A stretch of DNA of 38,161 nucleotides from Planctomycetota bacterium (GTDB lineage: Bacteria; Planctomycetota; Phycisphaerae; Sedimentisphaerales; Anaerohalosphaeraceae), in assembly GCA_013349435.1 (NCBI GenBank), contig DUZQ01000024.1, positions 1 through 38,161 on the forward strand, written 5' to 3'. Shown here one piece after another: positions 4,913 to 22,264 of this stretch. The notes beneath the pieces are model-generated. The model searched no databases and was not told the origin of the DNA. It saw only the letters and a list, made by a program, of their open reading frames with translations. The position numbers and the translations under genes are program-made. The stretch's first letter is position 1. Each line of letters starts with the position of its first letter.

Positions 4913-5611
4913 TTAACTTTCCGCCTTAGTTTTGTCGCCTTCGTCAGCCTGGGCTTCCTGGTCGGGATTTTCGGGTGTCTCCGGCGGCGGGGCACTTTCG
5001 GCTGCTTGCGCGGCTCGGCTTTTGTCTTCTGCGGATTCCTGGGCCTCGACGGTCTTGGCGGGTGTCTCCGGGGTCGGGGCAGGCTCGGGCTTTACAGTTT
5101 CCTCCGGAGCCGTGTCGGTTTCTTTGTTTTCGACTTTGACTTCTTCGTCCTTTACTGTTTCGGGAGCCTCGGCGGTCTTGGCGGGTGTCTCCGGCGGCGG
5201 GGCACTTTCGGCTGCTTGCGCAGCTCGGCTTTTGTCTTCTGCGGGCTCTTGGGCCTGGGCTTTTTCGGCGGCGACTTTTTCGGCTTTTGTGAAAAATTTA
5301 CCTTCCGCCCGGGCACGCAGCTTGGCCCTTTCTCTGCGCTTGGTTTTTTCCTGGCCGTGTTTGGTCTTTATGCCGAATCTTAACAATATCTGTGAAACCG
5401 CTTCAGTCGGCACGGCACCGGCATCGAGCCAGTGTTTTACCCTCTCAAGGTCAAGGACAACCTGCTTTTCCTCGTCCTTTTCGAGGGGGTCATAGTGGCC
5501 CAACTTTTCAAGAACCCTTCCTTTTTGCTGATTCCGGTTCTCGATGGCGTTTATCCTGAAAAAGGGCCTGTGCCGGCGACCGATTCGCATCATTCTGATT
5601 TTTACTGCCAT
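4913..5611 (-). CDS. rpsP: 30S ribosomal protein S16 with long low-complexity C-terminal extension
   Basis: Residues 1 to about 85 are a normal S16: MAVKIRMMRIGRRHRPFF, RGRVLEKLG-like KGRVLEKLGHYDPL, VKHWLDAGAVPTEAV and LLRFGI. After a basic linker (TKRRERAKLRARAEGKFFTK) comes a tail of about 125 residues made of A, E, P, K, T, Q and S. It contains a duplicated block beginning EDKSRAAQAAESAPPPETP near the middle and again near the end; the duplication is visible in DNA at 4973-5034 and 5184-5246. S16 is usually 80-130 residues, so this one is almost double. I chose ATG 5611, with AAAGG about ten bases upstream, over an earlier in-frame start because it gives the canonical S16 N-terminus. The tail is probably disordered and exposed on the ribosome. 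Confidence 0.95.
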   Translation of the reverse strand: MAVKIRMMRIGRRHRPFFRINAIENRNQQKGRVLEKLGHYDPLEKDEEKQVVLDLERVKHWLDAGAVPTEAVSQILLRFGIKTKHGQEKTKRRERAKLRARAEGKFFTKAEKVAAEKAQAQEPAEDKSRAAQAAESAPPPETPAKTAEAPETVKDEEVKVENKETDTAPEETVKPEPAPTPETPAKTVEAQESAEDKSRAAQAAESAPPPETPENPDQEAQADEGDKTKAES

Positions 5612-5680
5612 TTTATCTAACCTTTCAGTTTTTCTATGATTAATTCCCGCAACTTGCCCTGTGCAAATCACGAAACTCGT

Positions 5681-8600
5681 TTACAAGGATTTTTCAAAAC
5701 TTATACACTTTTTTTCAATATCTGGGTAAATCTTATCCAGTTTCTTCTGGATATTCTCTGTTTCCCTGACCGCAGTTACAATCCTGCAGTAATGTTTAAT
5801 ATCTGCCAGGGAAAGCCTCCTTCCTTTCCTCGACTTGAGCCACTTATCCAGAACCTGATAACCGCCTATGCGATATTCCCACATATCCGGCTTAACAGGC
5901 ACAAAATACCGGCCTTCATTGATATATACCGCTTTTTTTCCGGCATCATAGCTTATTTTCTCAACAAGATTATTACCTTTTCCTTCAAATTTAGCAACAG
6001 GTTTATCTAATTTTCTGGAAGTCATCAAATGCAGCTCTACCAAATTGTTACCCTGCCTGCTCATTAAGCGAAATACGCTAAAATCCCTGCAGACCGGAAT
6101 ACGCGGAAAATCGCTCTTGAGGAATTCGCCGTATTTGGTCCGGTAGGCGGGTGAATACAGAACTGCATATATGTAATAAAAGAGTGTCTCTGCTTTGATT
6201 TTTTTCCCGTAAGTTTTTTGAAGCGTCTCGAAAACCGAAGGATTTATGTTGACCTGACGCTGGTAACGCTCGGCTCCGTTAAACAAATCCACGTCCGGGT
6301 AAGTATAAAGAGGGAACACATACGAGCTTGAGGCGGTGTTGGGTGCGAGTACCGCCGCTGAAGAAATTGTCTTGCTAACCCAGCAATGCCTGAAAGACTC
6401 TCCTTTAACGATACGAGAGGTAATCATTGACAGATTTTCCTGCATCATGTGCCGCATGACCTCTCTCCGCCTTCTTTCTATAACCGCATCGTTGTAGAAA
6501 ATCCATCGACTGTCGAAAGGCCTGTAGAGGATATCCGTGACCTGCTTTTCCCATTTATCCTCCTGCCGGACTTTTTTGCGTGCGTCTTTGAGTTTCCACC
6601 TTGGGTTTTCCTTCAGGTCAAAGGCCTTTTTTATCATTCCATCAGGGATGCTTTCATCTCGGAACATCCTTAAGCGTTTGGACAGTTCAGCCTTCTCACA
6701 AGCGATGACTAACTTATCTCGGCTTGTTACGACCCCCACGCTATTTGTGCCGAATATATCCGTGATTTTTGTATACTTCTCATAACCGGCTAATAACTTT
6801 CCGTCTCGGCGCACAAAGAAATAAAAATCTTTTTCCGGTGTCAGTTTTTTCCACTTTGTGTTTTTGACATAATGACGTCCGAGCCAGTCATATTTTTGCT
6901 GCCGCAGTCCCCATAAATCGCTGTGCGAAACTTTCTTTTTCAGGCCTTTTTTCTTTACAGCTAAGATAATTGCTACGCCCTGCTGAATATCAAAGACATT
7001 CTCATCTTTAGAGCCGTCGGGGCATTTTTCTCTTTTCTTGCTGTTGCCGTGCAGGTCTAACACATAAATATGATTGAAGCTGTTCATTAAGGACCATCGC
7101 ATACCCCTGAAAGTCGGATTGTCTAAGTAGCTGTGATTGGTGATAAATCCGAGAACTCCTTCGCCCGCCTGGTCTATCTTCCACTGTGCAAAGCGGATAA
7201 ACTTTACATAATCATCCTGCAACCACTTGGGATTCTTTTCACCGAGGTCCTTCCCATCTACCTTATAATATTCTTTGATTTCCCTGCTTATCCACGGTCC
7301 CGTGTTGGCTGAATGTCCTGAATAAGGTGGATTTCCCAAGATGACAAGGATGGGCTTTTGTTTTTTTATTTCGCCGGCGGCGTGAGACTCTCTGGATAAG
7401 GAACTCGTACCCGGCAGGTTACTCTCTGCAAGCTCCTTCATATCGAGCGTATTTGTCAGGTAGAGCTTAAACCGGTCGTCCCGGTCGAGCGTGTATCCAA
7501 ATTCCTCAAGGAGAAAGCCCATCTTGAGGTGTCCTATTGCGTATGGCGCCATCATCAATTCGAAGGCATAGAAATTTTTCAGAATATGGTTTTTTATCAG
7601 CTCGCTTGTGCCGCCCCGGCCGTATTTATCCGCAAATTCCTGAACACCGACACTTGCTGCTTCGGCTAAGAACGTAAGTGTTCCGGCACCCGGGTCGAGT
7701 ACGGTTATCGAACCAGTCGCCAGGCCGTCCGGCTTATCAAAATAATCTTTCAAAATTGTGTTCAAAGAGTTAACAATGTAAGATACGACTTCTTGTGGAG
7801 TGTAATAAACACCACGCTGTTCTCTTTCTTTCGGGTCGTATTGGGCAAGAAATGTTTCATAGAAGTGCACAACAGGGTCTTTGCCTTTACCTTCAACGAA
7901 GTACTTGTGGAGAATTTGTTTTACATCGGCTGCTGCGAGTATGTCTGCAATATCATCAATTATCCAGACAAGTTCATCGCCCGGCTCTTCCAGTGAAACG
8001 AACCGAAACACATCCCGCAGAATGCCGATAGTTCTCGGGATATTGTCAAATGCAAGTTTTCTGTTAAATTCACCCTTACATCGCGTGCTCGCCGCAAAAA
8101 GACCGTAAGTGATGGTCTGTGCATAGATGTCGGCGAAATCCTCTTTTTTAAGGGCGGCAATCAGGTGTTCGCGAAACGCCTCATAAAATCCCGCCGGGTC
8201 GCCGGTGCCGCCGTCAAGTGCAAACAGAACCTGCTCTCTTAAGTAATGTGTCCTTTTGGCAAGTGCCTGAGCTAACGTTTTCGGCGTGTATGTTCGAGGT
8301 AGTGAAAAAGAGAAGAACTTGTCTAATAAACTTAAAAACTTTTCTTCGTTTTCCACCGGTGGGACCGTTTTTAGTTGTCCGGCGATAAAACGACGCCCGA
8401 TTTGAACTTTATCAGTCAAGGCGCCGTTCCGATATAATCGGAATTCAAAAAAATTTGTCAGTATTACGTTGGCAAAGGAGTTCAGATATCGCTTTAACTG
8501 CTGCGATTCGGCTATCTTATCAAGATTTTCTTCTGTCGGTGGTTTTGCTTCAATGTAACCTACTATATGTTGTCTGCCGTCCCAGATACGAAAGTCGGGA

Positions 8601-8767
8601 TTTCCCGCCTCTGTTCTTTTCGGTTGGACAGTAACCTCTGTTTTTGACCTGTTTATAGATTGCGCAAAGCTGCCCATCAGAGTTGACAGAGTGTTATAAT
8701 AGCTCTCTTCTCTGGCATCGCCTCTTTGGGCAACCTTGAATATTTCGTTCATATATGTTTTCAGCAT
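5681..8767 (-). CDS. Single-chain type ISP/IIG restriction-modification enzyme (nuclease + N6-adenine methylase + specificity domain)
   Basis: The product is 1028 residues. An N-terminal PD-(D/E)XK nuclease is visible at about residues 57-75 (GNPDF ... VGYIEAK), with QQLKRY at 89-95. A gamma-class N6-adenine methylase follows: GVYYTPQEVV at 319-328, VLDPGAGTLTFLAEA at 356-370 (motif I, SAM binding) and ILGNPPYSG at 477-485 (motif IV, catalytic NPPY). The last part, ending in PVKPDMWEYRIGGYQVLDKW and RKGRRLSLADIKHYCRIV, resembles the C-terminal specificity domain of type ISP enzymes such as LlaBIII. Unlike LlaGI/LlaBIII there is no helicase between nuclease and methylase. No separate methylase or specificity gene is needed. 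It lies between rpsP and the HIRAN/HipA-like pair, inside a translation operon. ATG 8767 or ATG 8752 could be the start. Confidence 0.9.
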   Translation of the reverse strand: MLKTYMNEIFKVAQRGDAREESYYNTLSTLMGSFAQSINRSKTEVTVQPKRTEAGNPDFRIWDGRQHIVGYIEAKPPTEENLDKIAESQQLKRYLNSFANVILTNFFEFRLYRNGALTDKVQIGRRFIAGQLKTVPPVENEEKFLSLLDKFFSFSLPRTYTPKTLAQALAKRTHYLREQVLFALDGGTGDPAGFYEAFREHLIAALKKEDFADIYAQTITYGLFAASTRCKGEFNRKLAFDNIPRTIGILRDVFRFVSLEEPGDELVWIIDDIADILAAADVKQILHKYFVEGKGKDPVVHFYETFLAQYDPKEREQRGVYYTPQEVVSYIVNSLNTILKDYFDKPDGLATGSITVLDPGAGTLTFLAEAASVGVQEFADKYGRGGTSELIKNHILKNFYAFELMMAPYAIGHLKMGFLLEEFGYTLDRDDRFKLYLTNTLDMKELAESNLPGTSSLSRESHAAGEIKKQKPILVILGNPPYSGHSANTGPWISREIKEYYKVDGKDLGEKNPKWLQDDYVKFIRFAQWKIDQAGEGVLGFITNHSYLDNPTFRGMRWSLMNSFNHIYVLDLHGNSKKREKCPDGSKDENVFDIQQGVAIILAVKKKGLKKKVSHSDLWGLRQQKYDWLGRHYVKNTKWKKLTPEKDFYFFVRRDGKLLAGYEKYTKITDIFGTNSVGVVTSRDKLVIACEKAELSKRLRMFRDESIPDGMIKKAFDLKENPRWKLKDARKKVRQEDKWEKQVTDILYRPFDSRWIFYNDAVIERRRREVMRHMMQENLSMITSRIVKGESFRHCWVSKTISSAAVLAPNTASSSYVFPLYTYPDVDLFNGAERYQRQVNINPSVFETLQKTYGKKIKAETLFYYIYAVLYSPAYRTKYGEFLKSDFPRIPVCRDFSVFRLMSRQGNNLVELHLMTSRKLDKPVAKFEGKGNNLVEKISYDAGKKAVYINEGRYFVPVKPDMWEYRIGGYQVLDKWLKSRKGRRLSLADIKHYCRIVTAVRETENIQKKLDKIYPDIEKKCISFEKSL

Positions 8768-8785: not shown

Positions 8786-8856
8786 CTAAGATTTTTTGCA
8801 GTCGAGTTTATAGCCGTTGATGAAAATTGCAAGTATTGCGGGGTCAATTTTAGCGT
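8786..8856 (-). pseudogene. Duplicated 3'-end fragment of the small ORF downstream of ffh
   Basis: On the minus strand this reads AKIDPAILAIFINGYKLDCK, then KS and TAG (8786-8788). The small ORF at 10561 ends AKIDPAILAIFINGYALQAK and then KTDS. The DNA match is 44 of 46 bases (8811-8856 against 10592-10637), 35 of them consecutive and perfect. No start or N-terminal part is present, so it is a remnant. The stop codon of the HIRAN gene (8850-8852) lies inside this fragment. Confidence 0.75.
8811..8856. repeat. 46-bp direct repeat, copy A (flanks HIRAN/HipA-like cassette)
   Basis: It matches 10592-10637 in the same orientation with two mismatches (positions 8846 and 8852). Bases 8811-8845 are identical to 10592-10626. 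The two copies bracket the HIRAN and HipA-like genes, about 1.7 kb, as a target-gene duplication or recombination scar would. Confidence 0.85.
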
Positions 8857-9554
8857 TGCTTAACGGAAACAAAAAGATAAATGTCAGGACGTCCTTGCAT
8901 TCCATTTATCCTTTCCACGCTCGCATCAATTCTGCAGCGTGCCTCAAACCAGGAGTGGAATGATTCTGTTAAACCACGACAGACGTAACCCGCGCGAACT
9001 CCATTAATGATTATCTTTATAGCCCTAGGATCAAATTCGTTTCCCGGCTCGACTTCAAAAGTGGCCTCTTGCCCCTGCTCAATACAGTCAGGAGGTAATT
9101 TCTCCACATAGTAACGATAACCCTGTACACACATCAGCATTTCAAACGGCGGAACAGCGTTTTCAAAAGTGTGGACGACCGTAAAATCGTCATCCGGCAG
9201 CTTGGCACCCGAATAACCCAAAAGAGCAAAATCTGAAATCTCAGCGTCCCTCTGTATTCTCAGAGAATCGAGGTATCTTCCGAAATCCCCGCGTGTCCTC
9301 AGCGGGAGGCGCTTCATAAATACAGGAAGAACCTTTTCGTATCTTTGCTGCTTAGTCTCAAAACCTGGGTAGTTTTCAAATCCGAAGGACAGAGCTTTTT
9401 CGAATTCAATGCTATCAAGCAAATATATAAGATCGGCATCATTCCCAGTACGGACCAATTCTGCTACAAACATTCTTCCACGCCCCTCGGTTGGTTTTGG
9501 CTGCCACGAGAGCAGAAGCTTTTCAGGTTCAACTATATGTTCGATATACCTCAT
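8850..9554 (-). CDS. HIRAN-domain protein, partner of HipA-like kinase
   Basis: The product has 234 residues. The C-terminal third matches the HIRAN pattern: TFEVEPGNEFDPRAIKIIIN, then GVRAGYVCRGL and a closing beta-rich VERINGMQGRPDIYLFVSV. HIRAN domains are small beta-barrels that recognise DNA ends or single-stranded DNA in HLTF/Rad5-type proteins and occur as accessory domains in bacteria. The N-terminal 120 residues (from MRYIEHIVEPEKLLLSW) are not recognised; they could be a relic of the HipA N-terminal domain. ATG 9554 overlaps the stop of the kinase gene by four bases, so the two are translationally coupled. The stop codon lies in the flanking direct repeat. The pairing suggests a sensor or antitoxin role (inference). 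Confidence 0.75.
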   Translation of the reverse strand: MRYIEHIVEPEKLLLSWQPKPTEGRGRMFVAELVRTGNDADLIYLLDSIEFEKALSFGFENYPGFETKQQRYEKVLPVFMKRLPLRTRGDFGRYLDSLRIQRDAEISDFALLGYSGAKLPDDDFTVVHTFENAVPPFEMLMCVQGYRYYVEKLPPDCIEQGQEATFEVEPGNEFDPRAIKIIINGVRAGYVCRGLTESFHSWFEARCRIDASVERINGMQGRPDIYLFVSVKQR

Positions 9555-10522
9555 ATATTAAGGGCTTTTTTGAGCAATTCCTTGCGTTCGAATATCAGCT
9601 CTATTATAAAATTCAGCCTTTTTTGGCTAAGACAATATGTAGCATCAGATACCGCATCGGCAAGAGGACTGATTGCCTCTTCAACCTGGGCCTTGTTGAA
9701 ATTCAAATGCTTGCTAATTATAGGCTTAGTCTCAGGAAATTCCAGTACGAACTTTTGCATAAAGTCAAAGAAGTTCAAAGTTTCCTGCCCATCTATAGAC
9801 CACTTCATATGATGTCTGGCACGCCTGGGGTTAGTGAGATACCCCTCCCTTACAACAGGGTCACTGTATTTATCGATGTTTTTCTCGATTATCTCGTAAG
9901 CAAGTGCGGTCCCATTGTCAAAGGCAGGGGAAAAGTAAAGTGTTGGCTCTTTTATTATTTTCCCCCTAACTCCTTTTGCTATCAGCCCCCAGTTGTCCTG
10001 ATGTCTGTCTGTATTTCCGGTAAGACAATCCAAAGTGAACACTCCTGCCCAGTGTTCCTTAAATCCCGATAGATTTTTTAATTGGGCGATCGTCGTAAAG
10101 TTATGTTGGCTGCCCCTTTGGCGATCATAATCCTTAACGAACTGGACCATAAACTGTCCGCCCTCGAAATAGAGGTCTTGCTTGTCGTTATAGAACCACT
10201 CTATCAATGCCCCAAAAATAATTTGTCCTTCACTATATTTTTCACTTAATCCGATGTGTGCCGGTGGAACTTCAACACCCATAATCAAGCCGAGCCTGTA
10301 AGCAATTATCTCTCCCCAGAACTGCCACGGGCACCACGAGCGGGATAGTTTAAAGAGATATCTAAAGTTTGGTTTCAAACAATCCTCTTCGACACTTTGA
10401 GGTGAAAAGTAAGCGCTCTTGTCTCTTGCTCCCTTAGGATATACACCCTCATAAGTATCATCCTGCTGCCATTCGTCAATGACTACGGGCTTATTACACA
10501 AATTAAATTTCGTTTCTGCCAT
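9551..10522 (-). CDS. HipA-like serine/threonine kinase
   Basis: The product has 323 residues, shorter than E. coli HipA (440), and corresponds to the kinase core without the N-subdomain. Visible elements are RYLFKLSRS at 54-62 (candidate ATP-binding lysine), WGEIIAYRLGLIMGVEVPPAHI at 69-90 (conserved E and the A.RLG..VP pattern), CLTGNTDRHQDNWGLI at 166-181 (catalytic loop, D172 and N177) and YFSPAFDNGTAL at 196-207 (metal-binding D202). HipA kinases phosphorylate translation factors such as glutamyl-tRNA synthetase in toxin-antitoxin systems; the target here is unknown. There is no HipB-like helix-turn-helix antitoxin next to it; the overlapping downstream gene is a HIRAN protein. It may be a toxin-antitoxin or defence pair. 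Confidence 0.82.
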   Translation of the reverse strand: MAETKFNLCNKPVVIDEWQQDDTYEGVYPKGARDKSAYFSPQSVEEDCLKPNFRYLFKLSRSWCPWQFWGEIIAYRLGLIMGVEVPPAHIGLSEKYSEGQIIFGALIEWFYNDKQDLYFEGGQFMVQFVKDYDRQRGSQHNFTTIAQLKNLSGFKEHWAGVFTLDCLTGNTDRHQDNWGLIAKGVRGKIIKEPTLYFSPAFDNGTALAYEIIEKNIDKYSDPVVREGYLTNPRRARHHMKWSIDGQETLNFFDFMQKFVLEFPETKPIISKHLNFNKAQVEEAISPLADAVSDATYCLSQKRLNFIIELIFERKELLKKALNI

Positions 10523-10560
10523 TTTTAGAAAGTAATCGCTATGATATATCCGTATGCTTG

Positions 10561-10761
10561 TTATGAGTCGGTTTTTTTAGCTTGTAAGGCGTAGCCGTTG
10601 ATGAAAATTGCAAGTATTGCGGGGTCGATTTTTGCGTCGGCGGCGATTTTCTGGATTTGTTCGTCGGTCAGGTCCCCGGCGGCATTCTTTTCGCTGGATG
10701 TCATAATCGCGACTGCTTTTGTTAGCTGCTCCAGTTCGGCGGCGGAGGGGGATTGCAACAT
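10561..10761 (-). CDS. Small hypothetical protein after ffh; frame opens further upstream without canonical start
   Basis: From ATG 10761 the product is 66 residues and helical, ending in LTDEQIQKIAADAK, then IDPAILAIFINGYALQAK. The frame is open upstream to beyond the ffh stop and the upstream part looks protein-like (SIDAYLQKLAAFVDDDYGRQ, then VRRQFADNRGSS). No ATG, GTG or TTG is available there. ATA at 10872 or ATT at 10863, shortly after AAGGAAAGGAAA at the ffh end, could start a product of about 100 residues. So the start is either rare, lost, or the downstream ATG with only a weak AGTGAG site. Its 3' end is duplicated at 8786-8856. Function unknown. Confidence 0.55.
   Translation of the reverse strand: MLQSPSAAELEQLTKAVAIMTSSEKNAAGDLTDEQIQKIAADAKIDPAILAIFINGYALQAKKTDS
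10592..10637. repeat. 46-bp direct repeat, copy B
   Basis: Second copy of the repeat at 8811-8856, lying inside the 3' end of the small ORF (10561-10761). It has the same orientation and 44/46 identity. Outside the repeat the two ends diverge, so both copies carry different last codons. Confidence 0.85.
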
Positions 10762-10877
10762 AGCAAGCTCACTTGAGCCGCGATTGTCAGCGAACTGACG
10801 GCGAACCTGCCTGCCGTAATCGTCATCAACGAAGGCCGCCAGCTTTTGGAGGTACGCGTCAATAGATTTTATGTCGT

Positions 10878-12299
10878 TTACCGCCGTCGTTTTTTTCCTT
10901 TCCTTCTGATTACTCTTTTTCGCTTCGAGCGTTGTTTTATCTTTCTGCCACCGCCGGCCATAGCGCCGAACATATCGGTTTTGCCGCTGAACAGCCCTTT
11001 AAGACCGCCCATTCCGCCGGCGCTGAGGCTTTTCATCATATCCCTGCTGCGCTTGAAGGTCTTTATCAGACCCGCAACGTCCTGCAGGTCCCTGCCGCAG
11101 CCCTTGGCGATGCGTCTTCTTCGAGAAGCATTGATTATATCAGGCTGGCGTCTCTCCTGAAGCGTCATAGAATGGACTATCCCCTCCATCTTGCTTATCT
11201 CGCCGTCATCAATGTCCAAATCGCCCAATTGTTTGCCTACTCCGGGTAAAAGTTTGAGCATATCGGCCATGCCGCCCATTTTCTTTACGGCCTGCATCTG
11301 CTTGAGGAAGTCGTCGAAACCGAAGCTGCCCTTTGCCATTTTCTTTTGTAGTTTTTCGGCCTCTTCTTCGTCGAACTGCTCCTGGGCCTTTTCTACGAGG
11401 GTAACAACATCGCCCATACCGAGGATTCTCGAAGCCATGCGGTCGGGGTGAAATTCTTCGAGTGTGTCGAGCTTTTCACCGACCCCGATAAACTTGATGG
11501 GCTTTCCGGTAACGGCCTTTACACTAAGAGCCGCCCCTCCGCGGGCATCGCCGTCAAGCTTGGTCAGAATCACCCCGTCAAGTTCGAGCCTCTCATTGAA
11601 CTCTTTTGCCGAATTGACGGCGTCCTGTCCGGTCATAGCGTCGCAGACAAGGTAAATCTGATGGGGCGTAACGGTCCTGGCTACCTTGTCAAGCTCAGCC
11701 ATCATTTCTTCGTCTATGTGCAGCCTGCCGGCTGTATCGAGCACAACAACATCGCAATCAATTTTTCCTGCGTGTTTTATGCCGTTTTTGGCGACCTTTA
11801 CAGCGTCTTTGATTTGCTCGCTATAGACCGGGATTTGAAGTTGCTCACCAAGGGTTATCAGTTGTTCGATAGCAGCGGGCCTTTGAAGGTCATCAGCGAC
11901 CATAAGGGGCTTTTTGCCTTTTGAGACAAGATATTTCGCCAGTTTTGCCGCGGTGGTTGTCTTTCCGCCACCCTGCAGGCCGGCCAACATTATCACGGTC
12001 GGCCCCGGTGAGACGAAGTAAATCCTCGTGTCCACCGGTCCCATCAGCCTGGTCAGCTCGTCGTTGACAATTTTTACCATCACCTGGCCGGGATGCAGAC
12101 TTTTTATAACCTCGGCACCGAGGGCGGCTTGTGTGCAGTCTTTACAGAACTGCTTTACCACGTTGTAGTTAACATCAGCGGCGAGCAGGGCCTTGCGGAC
12201 GTCGCGCATCGCGTCGGAAATATTGGCTTCGGTTATCCGGCCCCTGCCCGACAGCGATTTGAAAACCGCATTAAATTTTTCTGTCAACGCTTCAAACAT
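10878..12299 (-). CDS. ffh: Signal recognition particle protein Ffh
   Basis: Ffh is the SRP54-type GTPase that binds signal sequences with 4.5S RNA and delivers ribosomes to FtsY. The 473-residue product has the N helical bundle, then the G domain with GLQGGGKTTTAAKLAKYL (P-loop, about 109-126), DTAGRLHIDEEMM and TKLDGDARGGAA. The methionine-rich M domain carries FGFDDFLKQMQAVKKMGGM and the RNA-binding NASRRRRIAKGCG, and the protein ends in a very basic tail (KQRSKRKRVIRRKGKKRRR). ATG 12299 is preferred over the TTG one codon earlier. It is the first gene of the minus-strand cluster and would normally be followed by rpsP; accessory genes are inserted between them here. Confidence 0.97.
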   Translation of the reverse strand: MFEALTEKFNAVFKSLSGRGRITEANISDAMRDVRKALLAADVNYNVVKQFCKDCTQAALGAEVIKSLHPGQVMVKIVNDELTRLMGPVDTRIYFVSPGPTVIMLAGLQGGGKTTTAAKLAKYLVSKGKKPLMVADDLQRPAAIEQLITLGEQLQIPVYSEQIKDAVKVAKNGIKHAGKIDCDVVVLDTAGRLHIDEEMMAELDKVARTVTPHQIYLVCDAMTGQDAVNSAKEFNERLELDGVILTKLDGDARGGAALSVKAVTGKPIKFIGVGEKLDTLEEFHPDRMASRILGMGDVVTLVEKAQEQFDEEEAEKLQKKMAKGSFGFDDFLKQMQAVKKMGGMADMLKLLPGVGKQLGDLDIDDGEISKMEGIVHSMTLQERRQPDIINASRRRRIAKGCGRDLQDVAGLIKTFKRSRDMMKSLSAGGMGGLKGLFSGKTDMFGAMAGGGRKIKQRSKRKRVIRRKGKKRRR

Positions 12300-12448
12300 C
12301 AAATATCAGCCCCAAAGACCGAACAGCTGTTTGTTTAATTCTCCAACAGGATAAAAATCCCCCGCCTAAAGTGCAAAATTCTACCCTGATTCGGCGTTCG
12401 ATTGCAAGAGGAAAATGAGAAAATGTAAAGCGTTACCATTTTTGCAGT

Positions 12449-20172: not shown

Positions 20173-20553
20173 CTACGCAAATTCAGGGCAATACTGTTTT
20201 ACGGCTTCTATTATACTTTCAGCTTTGGCAAGAGCCATTCCGGCATCATTTTGTGAAACACTAATCAAGCCGCCATAATCACCCGTTTCGCGCATATCTA
20301 TCAGAAAATCATACGACCGACCAATATCTGCGGACCATTGGCCGGTTTTGATAAGTTCACGGTGCAATGCCCCCCGCAGAGCAGAATGCTTTGAAAAAGT
20401 TTGTCCCCGAAGAGCAAAAAGGGCTGTTAATGCATGAAAAGCAGCATAATAAGCACGCGATGCGGCAGAGTCAGGGTCAGTATCAACGAGTTGTGAGCCC
20501 GAAGCTAATGTGCGAAGGGCACGTTGCCATTCCGTGGCAGCAAACTCTTTCAT
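20173..20553 (-). CDS. HEPN-domain protein (UPF0332-type), putative toxin
   Basis: The 126-residue all-helical product has the UPF0332 HEPN pattern: PDSAASRAYYAAFHALTALF at about 27-46, FSKHSALRGALHRELI and RETGDYGGLISVSQNDA with a late ALAKAESIIEAV helix. HEPN proteins of HEPN/MNT pairs are usually ribonucleases or inactive relatives. A clear RX4-6H RNase motif is not evident; R-ETGDY is the family's conserved C-terminal motif instead. ATG 20553 overlaps the stop of the upstream MNT gene by four bases (ATGA), which supports a coupled toxin-antitoxin pair with the nucleotidyltransferase first. Confidence 0.85.
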   Translation of the reverse strand: MKEFAATEWQRALRTLASGSQLVDTDPDSAASRAYYAAFHALTALFALRGQTFSKHSALRGALHRELIKTGQWSADIGRSYDFLIDMRETGDYGGLISVSQNDAGMALAKAESIIEAVKQYCPEFA

Positions 20554-20864
20554 ATCATTATCCCTTCACGATGAACGTTTTGATATAAGGGACAATCCAC
20601 ACTTTCATATTCCGAGGCAATCACCGGCTTGGCACTGATACGACGACCAAGCTGTAAAGACAAAGGATAAAGAACGTCAAGATTTGTTTCCAGGTCATGG
20701 CCATAATCGAGGGGCCCATGCAGCAAAACAAGCACATCAATATCACTGTCAGCCGAGGTGTCTCCGCGAGCCTCTGAGCCATAGAGCACCACACCACACA
20801 AACGCTCGTGGTATGCCGCCGCTAAACCAGCCTTAATTTCTTCTAAAAGTTCTTTTTTAAGCAT
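20550..20864 (-). CDS. MNT-type nucleotidyltransferase, putative antitoxin
   Basis: The 104-residue product has the minimal nucleotidyltransferase signature VVLYGSEARGDTSADSDIDVLVLL at about 25-48: GS, then DxD with both metal-binding aspartates. A third acidic strand near LDVLYPLSLQLG is expected. In characterised HEPN/MNT systems this protein modifies the HEPN toxin with AMP and so neutralises it. It lies upstream of and overlaps the HEPN gene. No third gene belongs to the pair. Confidence 0.87.
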   Translation of the reverse strand: MLKKELLEEIKAGLAAAYHERLCGVVLYGSEARGDTSADSDIDVLVLLHGPLDYGHDLETNLDVLYPLSLQLGRRISAKPVIASEYESVDCPLYQNVHREGIMI

Positions 20865-21157: not shown

Positions 21158-22264
21158 TTACTCTAATTCCGGCGTTGAATCTAAAGAAAACTTTACCTGA
21201 TAAGTCATACACTTAATATCTTCTTGTCCGTCCAGCGCATACTGAAGCTTAATGTCAATTTGACTACAAATGATTAGCCCCTCAACTTTTTCCCCATTTG
21301 AAGCAAGGTTTTTACGTACCCAAGACATATACCTTAATATCTGGCCTACGGTACTATCGCTGGTCTGATGCTTCTTCAACTCGATGACAAGCCATTTTCT
21401 TTCGCTTTTGTGTTTTGCGAGTAAATCGATCTCCCCAACTTCCCCTGCATAATAATGTGACCCTACGATTTCCCCATCCTCTTCAAGCAAGCTCCACTCA
21501 TTTGACAATTCTGTTGCACTCCAGTTGTCTACCAAGAATTCATGAAGATATTTTTCAAGGGCAAAAACACATTCACTGTCTGTTGCTCCCTCGGTCATTT
21601 GAGTTTCCTCATCTTCTGAGATTCCGGCGACTCCATCTTTCGATAATCCTTTAGGCTTATGTGTGTTCGATACCCGCCACCAAAGCATATCGAGGGTCCA
21701 AAGGTCGATGTCAAGTTCTTTTGATACTTCTAACAGCACATGATTAATTTTTTCGTATTTTTCACCAAAAGATGCGCCCCTTGGAAACTCCGGCCACAAC
21801 TGTAGTTTCTTCATACCGGTTTCAGCCGTGTTATTTACCACACCGTACTTTTCAGGATGCATAATCTGCAGAATAGCTGTTATAACCGCCCGGCCTAAGC
21901 CTTTGACCATAGGGTCGCCATTAGTAGGTCTCAGTCTGTCTAAACGTGTCTTAATGGGCATATCTTCAGCGACCAATAATTTCAAGGCTTCTTTTAGCCT
22001 GCCCATATCTTCTGTCATCCAACCACCCTGACGATGTAAGCTATCCCAATGTTGGTTATTCTTGAATAAGAGAAATCCTTTAAAATCATCTACAGTAAGA
22101 TTATCAAGATTATCCGGCGAAAAAATCGGCTGATATTTGGTTAATACCTGCTCTTTAGCATTGCTGATTCGCGCACCTATTCTATAATATTCGTCAGTAG
22201 AATTGGGGGATACTTTTCCCAAAACACTTTTGAGCATATCAATTGCCTGTCTGTTTATAGCCAT
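21158..22264 (-). CDS. NucS-like PD-(D/E)XK endonuclease-domain protein
   Basis: The product has 368 residues. The C-terminal part (about 235-350) is a NucS-type nuclease: ALEKYLHEFLVDNW, EWSLLEEDGEIVGSHYYAGE, then VGEIDLLAKHKSERKWLVIELKKHQTSD with D280, E295 and K297 as the PD-(D/E)XK triad, and GQILRYMSWV at 307-316 (QxxxY). NucS/EndoMS cuts mismatched or branched DNA in archaea and actinobacteria. The N-terminal 230 residues (for example GLGRAVITAILQIMHPEKYG and LWTLDMLWWRVSN) are not the usual NucS N-domain and are unassigned; they may decide DNA binding or a defence role. It stands between HEPN/MNT and purH, in a small accessory cluster. Confidence 0.82.
   Translation of the reverse strand: MAINRQAIDMLKSVLGKVSPNSTDEYYRIGARISNAKEQVLTKYQPIFSPDNLDNLTVDDFKGFLLFKNNQHWDSLHRQGGWMTEDMGRLKEALKLLVAEDMPIKTRLDRLRPTNGDPMVKGLGRAVITAILQIMHPEKYGVVNNTAETGMKKLQLWPEFPRGASFGEKYEKINHVLLEVSKELDIDLWTLDMLWWRVSNTHKPKGLSKDGVAGISEDEETQMTEGATDSECVFALEKYLHEFLVDNWSATELSNEWSLLEEDGEIVGSHYYAGEVGEIDLLAKHKSERKWLVIELKKHQTSDSTVGQILRYMSWVRKNLASNGEKVEGLIICSQIDIKLQYALDGQEDIKCMTYQVKFSLDSTPELE

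Follow-up and report, generated by a model that had tools for sequence, protein, structure and literature searches.

The window, as the whole 38,161-nucleotide stretch of DNA analysed here is called, comes from a Planctomycetota bacterium of the order Sedimentisphaerales. On its minus strand the genes follow one another as ffh, a small conserved ORF, the kinase gene hipI, the HIRAN gene hipN, a type IIG restriction gene and rpsP. The pair hipI-hipN is bracketed by a 46-bp direct repeat, one copy of which (copy B) ends the small ORF while the other (copy A) lies between hipN and the restriction gene. An earlier note, made from the sequence alone, had outlined the same layout from ffh to copy A, and it was recovered here. 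The features, all on the minus strand, are as follows.

10878..12302, minus strand: ffh (SRP54), with Pfam matches SRP54, SRP_SPB and SRP54_N; conserved upstream neighbour.
10561..10881, minus strand: small conserved ORF, the target gene, present in 54 of 59 relatives; 139 of the 161 genomes from the order have its C-terminal part.
10592..10637, minus strand: repeat copy B, attL-like, within the intact small ORF.
10561..10591, minus strand: new 3' tail of the small ORF, ALQAKKTDS then stop, differing from the native tail at copy A.
9551..10522, minus strand: hipI, HipA-like Ser/Thr kinase (PDC-M03A), 323 aa; PADLOC PDLC04340, E 9e-37.
8850..9554, minus strand: hipN, HipS-like plus HIRAN (PDC-M03B), 234 aa; PADLOC PDLC04352, E 5e-24.
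8811..8856, minus strand: repeat copy A, attR-like, the displaced native small-ORF end, holding the hipN stop.
8786..8810, minus strand: displaced native tail, KLDCKKS then stop, running on into the restriction gene as in the related genome G001.
5681..8767, minus strand: type IIG/ISP restriction-methyltransferase, 1,028 aa; PADLOC PDLC03610, E 7e-264; Pfam Type_ISP_C, E 7e-88.
5635..5680, minus strand: conserved hairpin upstream of rpsP, with covariation, overlapping the small-ORF 3' end in insert-free genomes.
4913..5611, minus strand: rpsP (ribosomal protein S16), by sequence and the conserved order rpsP-trmD-rplS; far flank of the site.

The small ORF matches no Pfam entry and no known family; its listed ATG start is at 10761 and its conservation reaches upstream to approximately 10881, the true start being uncertain. 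The pair between the repeats, which the earlier note had described as HIRAN/HipA-like, could be refined by its PADLOC profiles to a known module: it is hipI-hipN (PDC-M03A/B), encoding a HipA-like kinase and a HipS-HIRAN putative antitoxin. The two genes overlap by 4 nt. Pfam by itself stayed below cutoff for both (hipI against HipA_C, E 1e-4), and the kinase motifs GNTDRHQDNW and FDNG of HipI appear intact by eye. When the modelled structure of HipN (mean pLDDT 95) was searched with Foldseek, the HIRAN domain of HLTF was matched at an E value of approximately 6e-5 and, more weakly, the HipBST chain 7ab3_E (E 0.034, TM-score 0.72 by target); a sequence search of the PDB returned only CtkA (E 0.13). 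The restriction gene between copy A and rpsP carries its methyltransferase and its ISP specificity domain on one chain. Elsewhere in the window, a HEPN gene (profile match) sits beside a gene with a nucleotidyltransferase-like motif at 20173-20864, possibly a toxin-antitoxin pair of the MntA-HepT type, and a nuclease-like gene with NucS_C and YhcG_C matches lies at 21158-22264.

HipN is the name that Gerdes et al. (2021, PMC8262856) gave to the HipS-HIRAN architecture, with the suggestion that hipIN could act in abortive infection. The window pair has in common with the hipIN/PDC-M03 module of that account the two-gene order with the kinase first, the HipS-like and HIRAN parts and both PADLOC profiles, and its 323-aa HipI compares with family averages of 279-321 aa in the text available; neither a Planctomycetota case nor a gene-end insertion is described in that portion of the paper. 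HipL, a single-chain kinase-HipS-HIRAN protein, has the same domains in one fused gene and in a prophage setting. A 519-aa protein of Escherichia phage 899 (PV533660) is probably HipL, and PHROG 26212 spans both hipI and hipN.

The repeat copies at 8811-8856 and 10592-10637 start 1,781 bp apart and, when re-measured, proved identical at 44 of 46 positions in direct orientation, with a longest identical run of 35 nt (8811-8845 and 10592-10626), the match counts being those of the earlier note. No match of this kind is expected by chance in shuffled sequence. The search of the genome for further copies that the note had proposed returned only the two bracketing ones, no third place being found for the core in the whole 3.14 Mb with up to three mismatches allowed, and a common genome-wide repeat is thereby ruled out. 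The hipN stop codon, TAA at 8850-8852, does fall inside copy A as had been observed, and is created by one of the two mismatches; the junction reads hipN..CGC-TAA followed directly by AAATTGACC, and 11 bp of distinct repeat sequence are joined to hipN ahead of the identical block. The 46-bp repeat holds no convincing recombinase-site dyad, the sole candidate being GCAAtacTTGC. A second AAACGTGTTTCGTGA was seen in the window genome (G000, contig C34, L234:3200-3500) near prfB- and transposase-like ORFs, probably by chance.

The direction of the event can be read from the empty site. G001, the one other genome of the genus compared, has a single copy of the small ORF, no cassette, and the restriction gene directly behind, and in DNA alignment its small-ORF/restriction-gene junction corresponds to copy A and its flank. 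Copy A with its KLDCKKS tail is therefore the native end, and the ALQAKKTDS tail together with hipI and hipN is the insertion. Sharply divergent tails behind 35 unchanged nt of core show that the new tail was brought in and did not arise by drift. Across the order (161 genomes, with the small gene found in 139) a second copy occurs in the window genome only, so the possibility that two copies are normal in relatives, which would have spoken against an insertion, is excluded. It is thus very probable that a 1,781-bp piece consisting of a new tail, hipI and hipN was pushed into the 3' end of the small ORF with regeneration of the gene end. Through the imported tail the small ORF kept an intact C-terminus, and its native end was pushed downstream. 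The central proposal of the earlier note, insertion at a gene 3' end with the end regenerated, is borne out by this empty site and by the same pattern at unrelated hipIN loci; its description of copy A as a remnant holds as far as the shared end with a different tail is concerned, except that copy A is not a mere remnant, being the displaced native end. Neither ffh nor the small ORF contains a clearly foreign stretch by sliding identity between the window genome and G001, a comparison that therefore cannot separate the two mechanisms weighed below.

The interval into which the cassette went has received other DNA. In most of the approximately 107 genomes surveyed, the small ORF and rpsP are 20-300 nt apart. 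Close homologues of the restriction gene were found in 13 genomes (62-83% identity), mapping to this interval; 11 of the 13 lie directly behind the small ORF or, in the window genome, behind the hipIN insertion, the one in G091 lies behind a 4.1-kb insert, and the position in G092, broken at a contig end, could not be judged. The type IIG/ISP gene is thus an older occupant of the site of hipIN. Its tree correlates with that of Ffh only moderately (r 0.42, Mantel p 0.016), which points to a mixture of vertical descent and exchange at the site. In G135 (L086) the restriction gene is nearest to that of another family (78-81% to G053 and G154) and the small ORF nearest to its own family, a pattern that suggests transfer into the same site. 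In G091 (L093) the 4.1-kb insert, with two large genes, occupies the position that hipIN has in the window, behind the small ORF and ahead of the restriction gene, and shows no clear repeat.

Other inserts at the site include PD-(D/E)XK (GxxExxY-like) genes, a 370-aa protein, membrane-protein pairs and large enzymes. In six genomes, namely G096 (L091), G069 (L097), G137 (L102), G114 (L109), G117 (L117) and G095 (L131), a second copy of the terminal 15-24 nt of the small ORF stands on the rpsP side of the insert, immediately ahead of that gene; whole-genome searches in five of the six (all but G117) located the duplicated motif at this locus only. The PD-(D/E)XK (GxxExxY-like) genes of L102 and L131 lie between inverted ACAGGATAACAGGAT-type sequences, and similar remnants were seen in G075, G098 and G100. 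To the gene-end insertion of the earlier note it can be added that the small ORF-rpsP interval appears to be a recurrent defence insertion site in the order, one that takes cassettes repeatedly and several of them with duplicated gene ends. Upstream of rpsP, an alignment of 52 sequences of the order (A2) revealed a conserved hairpin and a AATTGATTATA-like motif; the hairpin has 11 pairs and a covariation score of 0.576, compared with 0.277 for shuffles and no more than 0.215 on sliding, and Rfam gave no match in the region with E values up to 1. In insert-free genomes the last bases of the small ORF also open this hairpin. Because the small-gene end and the rpsP leader share bases, insertions would survive with the shared stretch duplicated.

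The brackets recur at hipIN loci of other lineages. At 65 of 69 hipI loci hipN stands directly behind hipI, and hipIN is a fixed pair. When 67 hipIN loci (the window and 66 others) were tested for a direct repeat within 600 bp on either side, tight gene-end brackets with only hipI and hipN inside were found at four, the window included, compared with none of 383 random 1.7-kb intervals of the same loci (Fisher p 4.5e-4, for a control unmatched in gene content and in distance from tRNAs). The three others are L169 in Ca. Saganbacteria (30-bp repeat, tRNA-Tyr 3' end), L178 in a Gammaproteobacterium (21-bp repeat, tRNA-Glu 3' end) and L213 in Omnitrophica (L213:5870-7727, 59-bp repeat, 90%), where it is the beginning of tsaE that is duplicated, hence a 5' and not a 3' gene end. 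At two further loci hipIN lies between tRNA-end repeats together with a tyrosine integrase: L185 in Ca. Accumulibacter (L185:3226-6228) is a 3.5-kb int-hipI-hipN unit with 48 bp of the tRNA-Met 3' end inside a 289-bp repeat (93%), and L207 has 47-50 bp of tRNA-Arg, with AlpA and an integrase within the wider bracket. Both use target genes other than that of the window, and their HipI proteins are 35-36% identical to the one studied here. An integrase gene is also found close to hipIN in L186 and L210, and 4.7 kb from it in L181. Within the order, gene-end repeats are absent from the remaining hipIN loci, so that the repeat belongs to the window insertion and not to hipIN as such. The module is rare on plasmids and phages, and 14 IMG/VR contigs carry it.

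As to how the cassette arrived, the best overall reading, to which we assign a probability of roughly 0.56 with the recombinase step included, is a gene-end integrative element whose integrase was lost or never carried, similar to a cis-mobilisable element (CIME). The 1,781-bp cassette, made up of hipI-hipN and a replacement 3' end, would have entered the 3' end of the small ORF, and the repeats would be the attL/attR outcome of gene-end integration by an enzyme that we infer to be of the tyrosine-recombinase type, the cassette being either an integrase-less derivative or a passenger that a recombinase moved in trans. The tRNA-end brackets and the integrase-hipIN elements at other loci favour site-specific integration, whether the integrase was lost or acted in trans. 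Between the repeats the ORF list shows hipI and hipN only, with no integrase or transfer genes, in agreement with the absence of an integrase that the earlier note had pointed out. Several points speak against this reading: an integrase linked to the small ORF-rpsP site was found in none of the genomes examined, the 46-bp repeat lacks a convincing dyad, the empty site is known from a single congener, and the repeat at the start of a gene in L213 is unusual for tyrosine integrases. So does the lack of a donor: searches by hipI of the order, phylum, class, GTDB contigs, viral contigs, plasmids and phages recovered no small ORF-hipIN junction elsewhere and no genome with the imported tail beside hipI.

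Housekeeping recombination is a serious if less probable rival, with perhaps one chance in three, since the duplications vary in position and length, the site has no integrase, and duplications by single crossover, hotspots free of mobile elements and orphan gene ends have all been published. DNA from a related species with a chromosomal small ORF-hipIN arrangement would have entered the cell, and either a single crossover within the short homology inserted a circularised piece, or homologous recombination in the small ORF was combined with an illegitimate join at the hipN end (homology-facilitated illegitimate recombination); the survivors would be only those insertions that leave the small-ORF end intact. 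Among E. coli clones with inserted gene-end fragments, 56 of 60 had a duplicated end, which was explained by circularisation of the DNA and one crossover (PMC3240628), many hotspots without mobile-element genes recombine at flanking core genes (PMC5635113), and T6SS and Rhs loci push orphan gene ends downstream (PMC5361080). At the present site, unrelated integrase-free inserts carry gene-end duplications of other places and lengths, in keeping with a mechanism that needs no fixed att site, and the hipN..CGC-TAA/AAATTGACC junction is compatible with microhomology. On its own, however, recombination of this kind leaves unexplained both the tRNA 3'-end brackets in other phyla and the integrase-hipIN elements, and it presupposes a donor in which hipIN stood 38 nt behind the small ORF beforehand, and the same searches found none. 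An assembly chimaera, with the 35-bp identical block as the point where sequences of two strains or species were fused, is very unlikely: the genome, in 139 contigs, does look like a metagenome-assembled one, as its named relatives are, yet the 11 bp of distinct repeat sequence beside hipN mean that a second copy is there anyway, and the same kind of structure occurs at other hipIN loci. Bracketing by direct repeats would also be expected from transposition with target-site duplication or from a local tandem duplication of the gene end; these were dropped as the least probable of the readings, as the ends have no terminal inverted repeats, no transposase is present, 46 bp far exceeds usual target duplications, and tandem duplication would not yield two different tails behind an identical core.

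The integrative-element reading can be set beside systems already described. With CIMEs, as defined in PMC5704250, the cassette shares gene-end attL/attR-like direct repeats and the absence of integration and transfer genes, and it abuts another occupant of the same site in an accretion-like manner; it differs in measuring only 1.8 kb, in holding one two-gene module and in having no known parent ICE or IME at the site. Small tyrosine-integrase elements at tRNA 3' ends, of which L185 carries int-hipI-hipN, likewise combine a gene-end repeat with a regenerated target, whereas the window cassette is integrase-free and sits in a protein gene. An integrase of its own, which would make it an IME, ICE or genomic island, is absent, as are the transposase, terminal inverted repeats and short target duplication of a transposon or IS. 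In the orphan 3' ends of Rhs and T6SS loci (PMC5361080), a new variable end with new genes similarly displaces the old end downstream as an orphan; the window differs in its target, which is no toxin gene but a small one linked to ffh, of unknown function. A literature search, with most subscription journals outside its reach, retrieved no paper describing a hipIN-only gene-end insertion. The parts are known; their combination, a hipIN-only, integrase-less insertion with the gene end regenerated and recurring across phyla, is new.

The hipIN pair is a probable toxin-antitoxin-type anti-phage module. HipN, with its HipS and HIRAN parts, would hold the kinase HipI in check, and upon infection or DNA damage HipI would be released and stop growth. 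HIRAN domains bind DNA ends, according to PMC8262856, and HipN may sense phage or damaged DNA before releasing HipI. A more speculative idea, which we consider unlikely, is that hipIN is not just cargo and forms the core of very small gene-end mobile elements across phyla (int-hipI-hipN of approximately 3.5 kb and integrase-less hipIN-only forms of approximately 2 kb), with the DNA-end-binding HIRAN domain of HipN possibly helping to capture or protect DNA ends.

The overlap of the small-gene end with the covarying rpsP-leader hairpin offers a possible reason why inserts at this site keep duplicated ends. The occurrence of hipIN between duplicated gene ends in four lineages, together with the integrase-bearing forms, makes the existence of very small toxin-antitoxin elements mobilised in trans a testable proposition. 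Above all, the locus provides a concrete case, complete with its empty site, of a minimal defence module entering a housekeeping gene that is left undamaged because the newcomer brings a replacement end.
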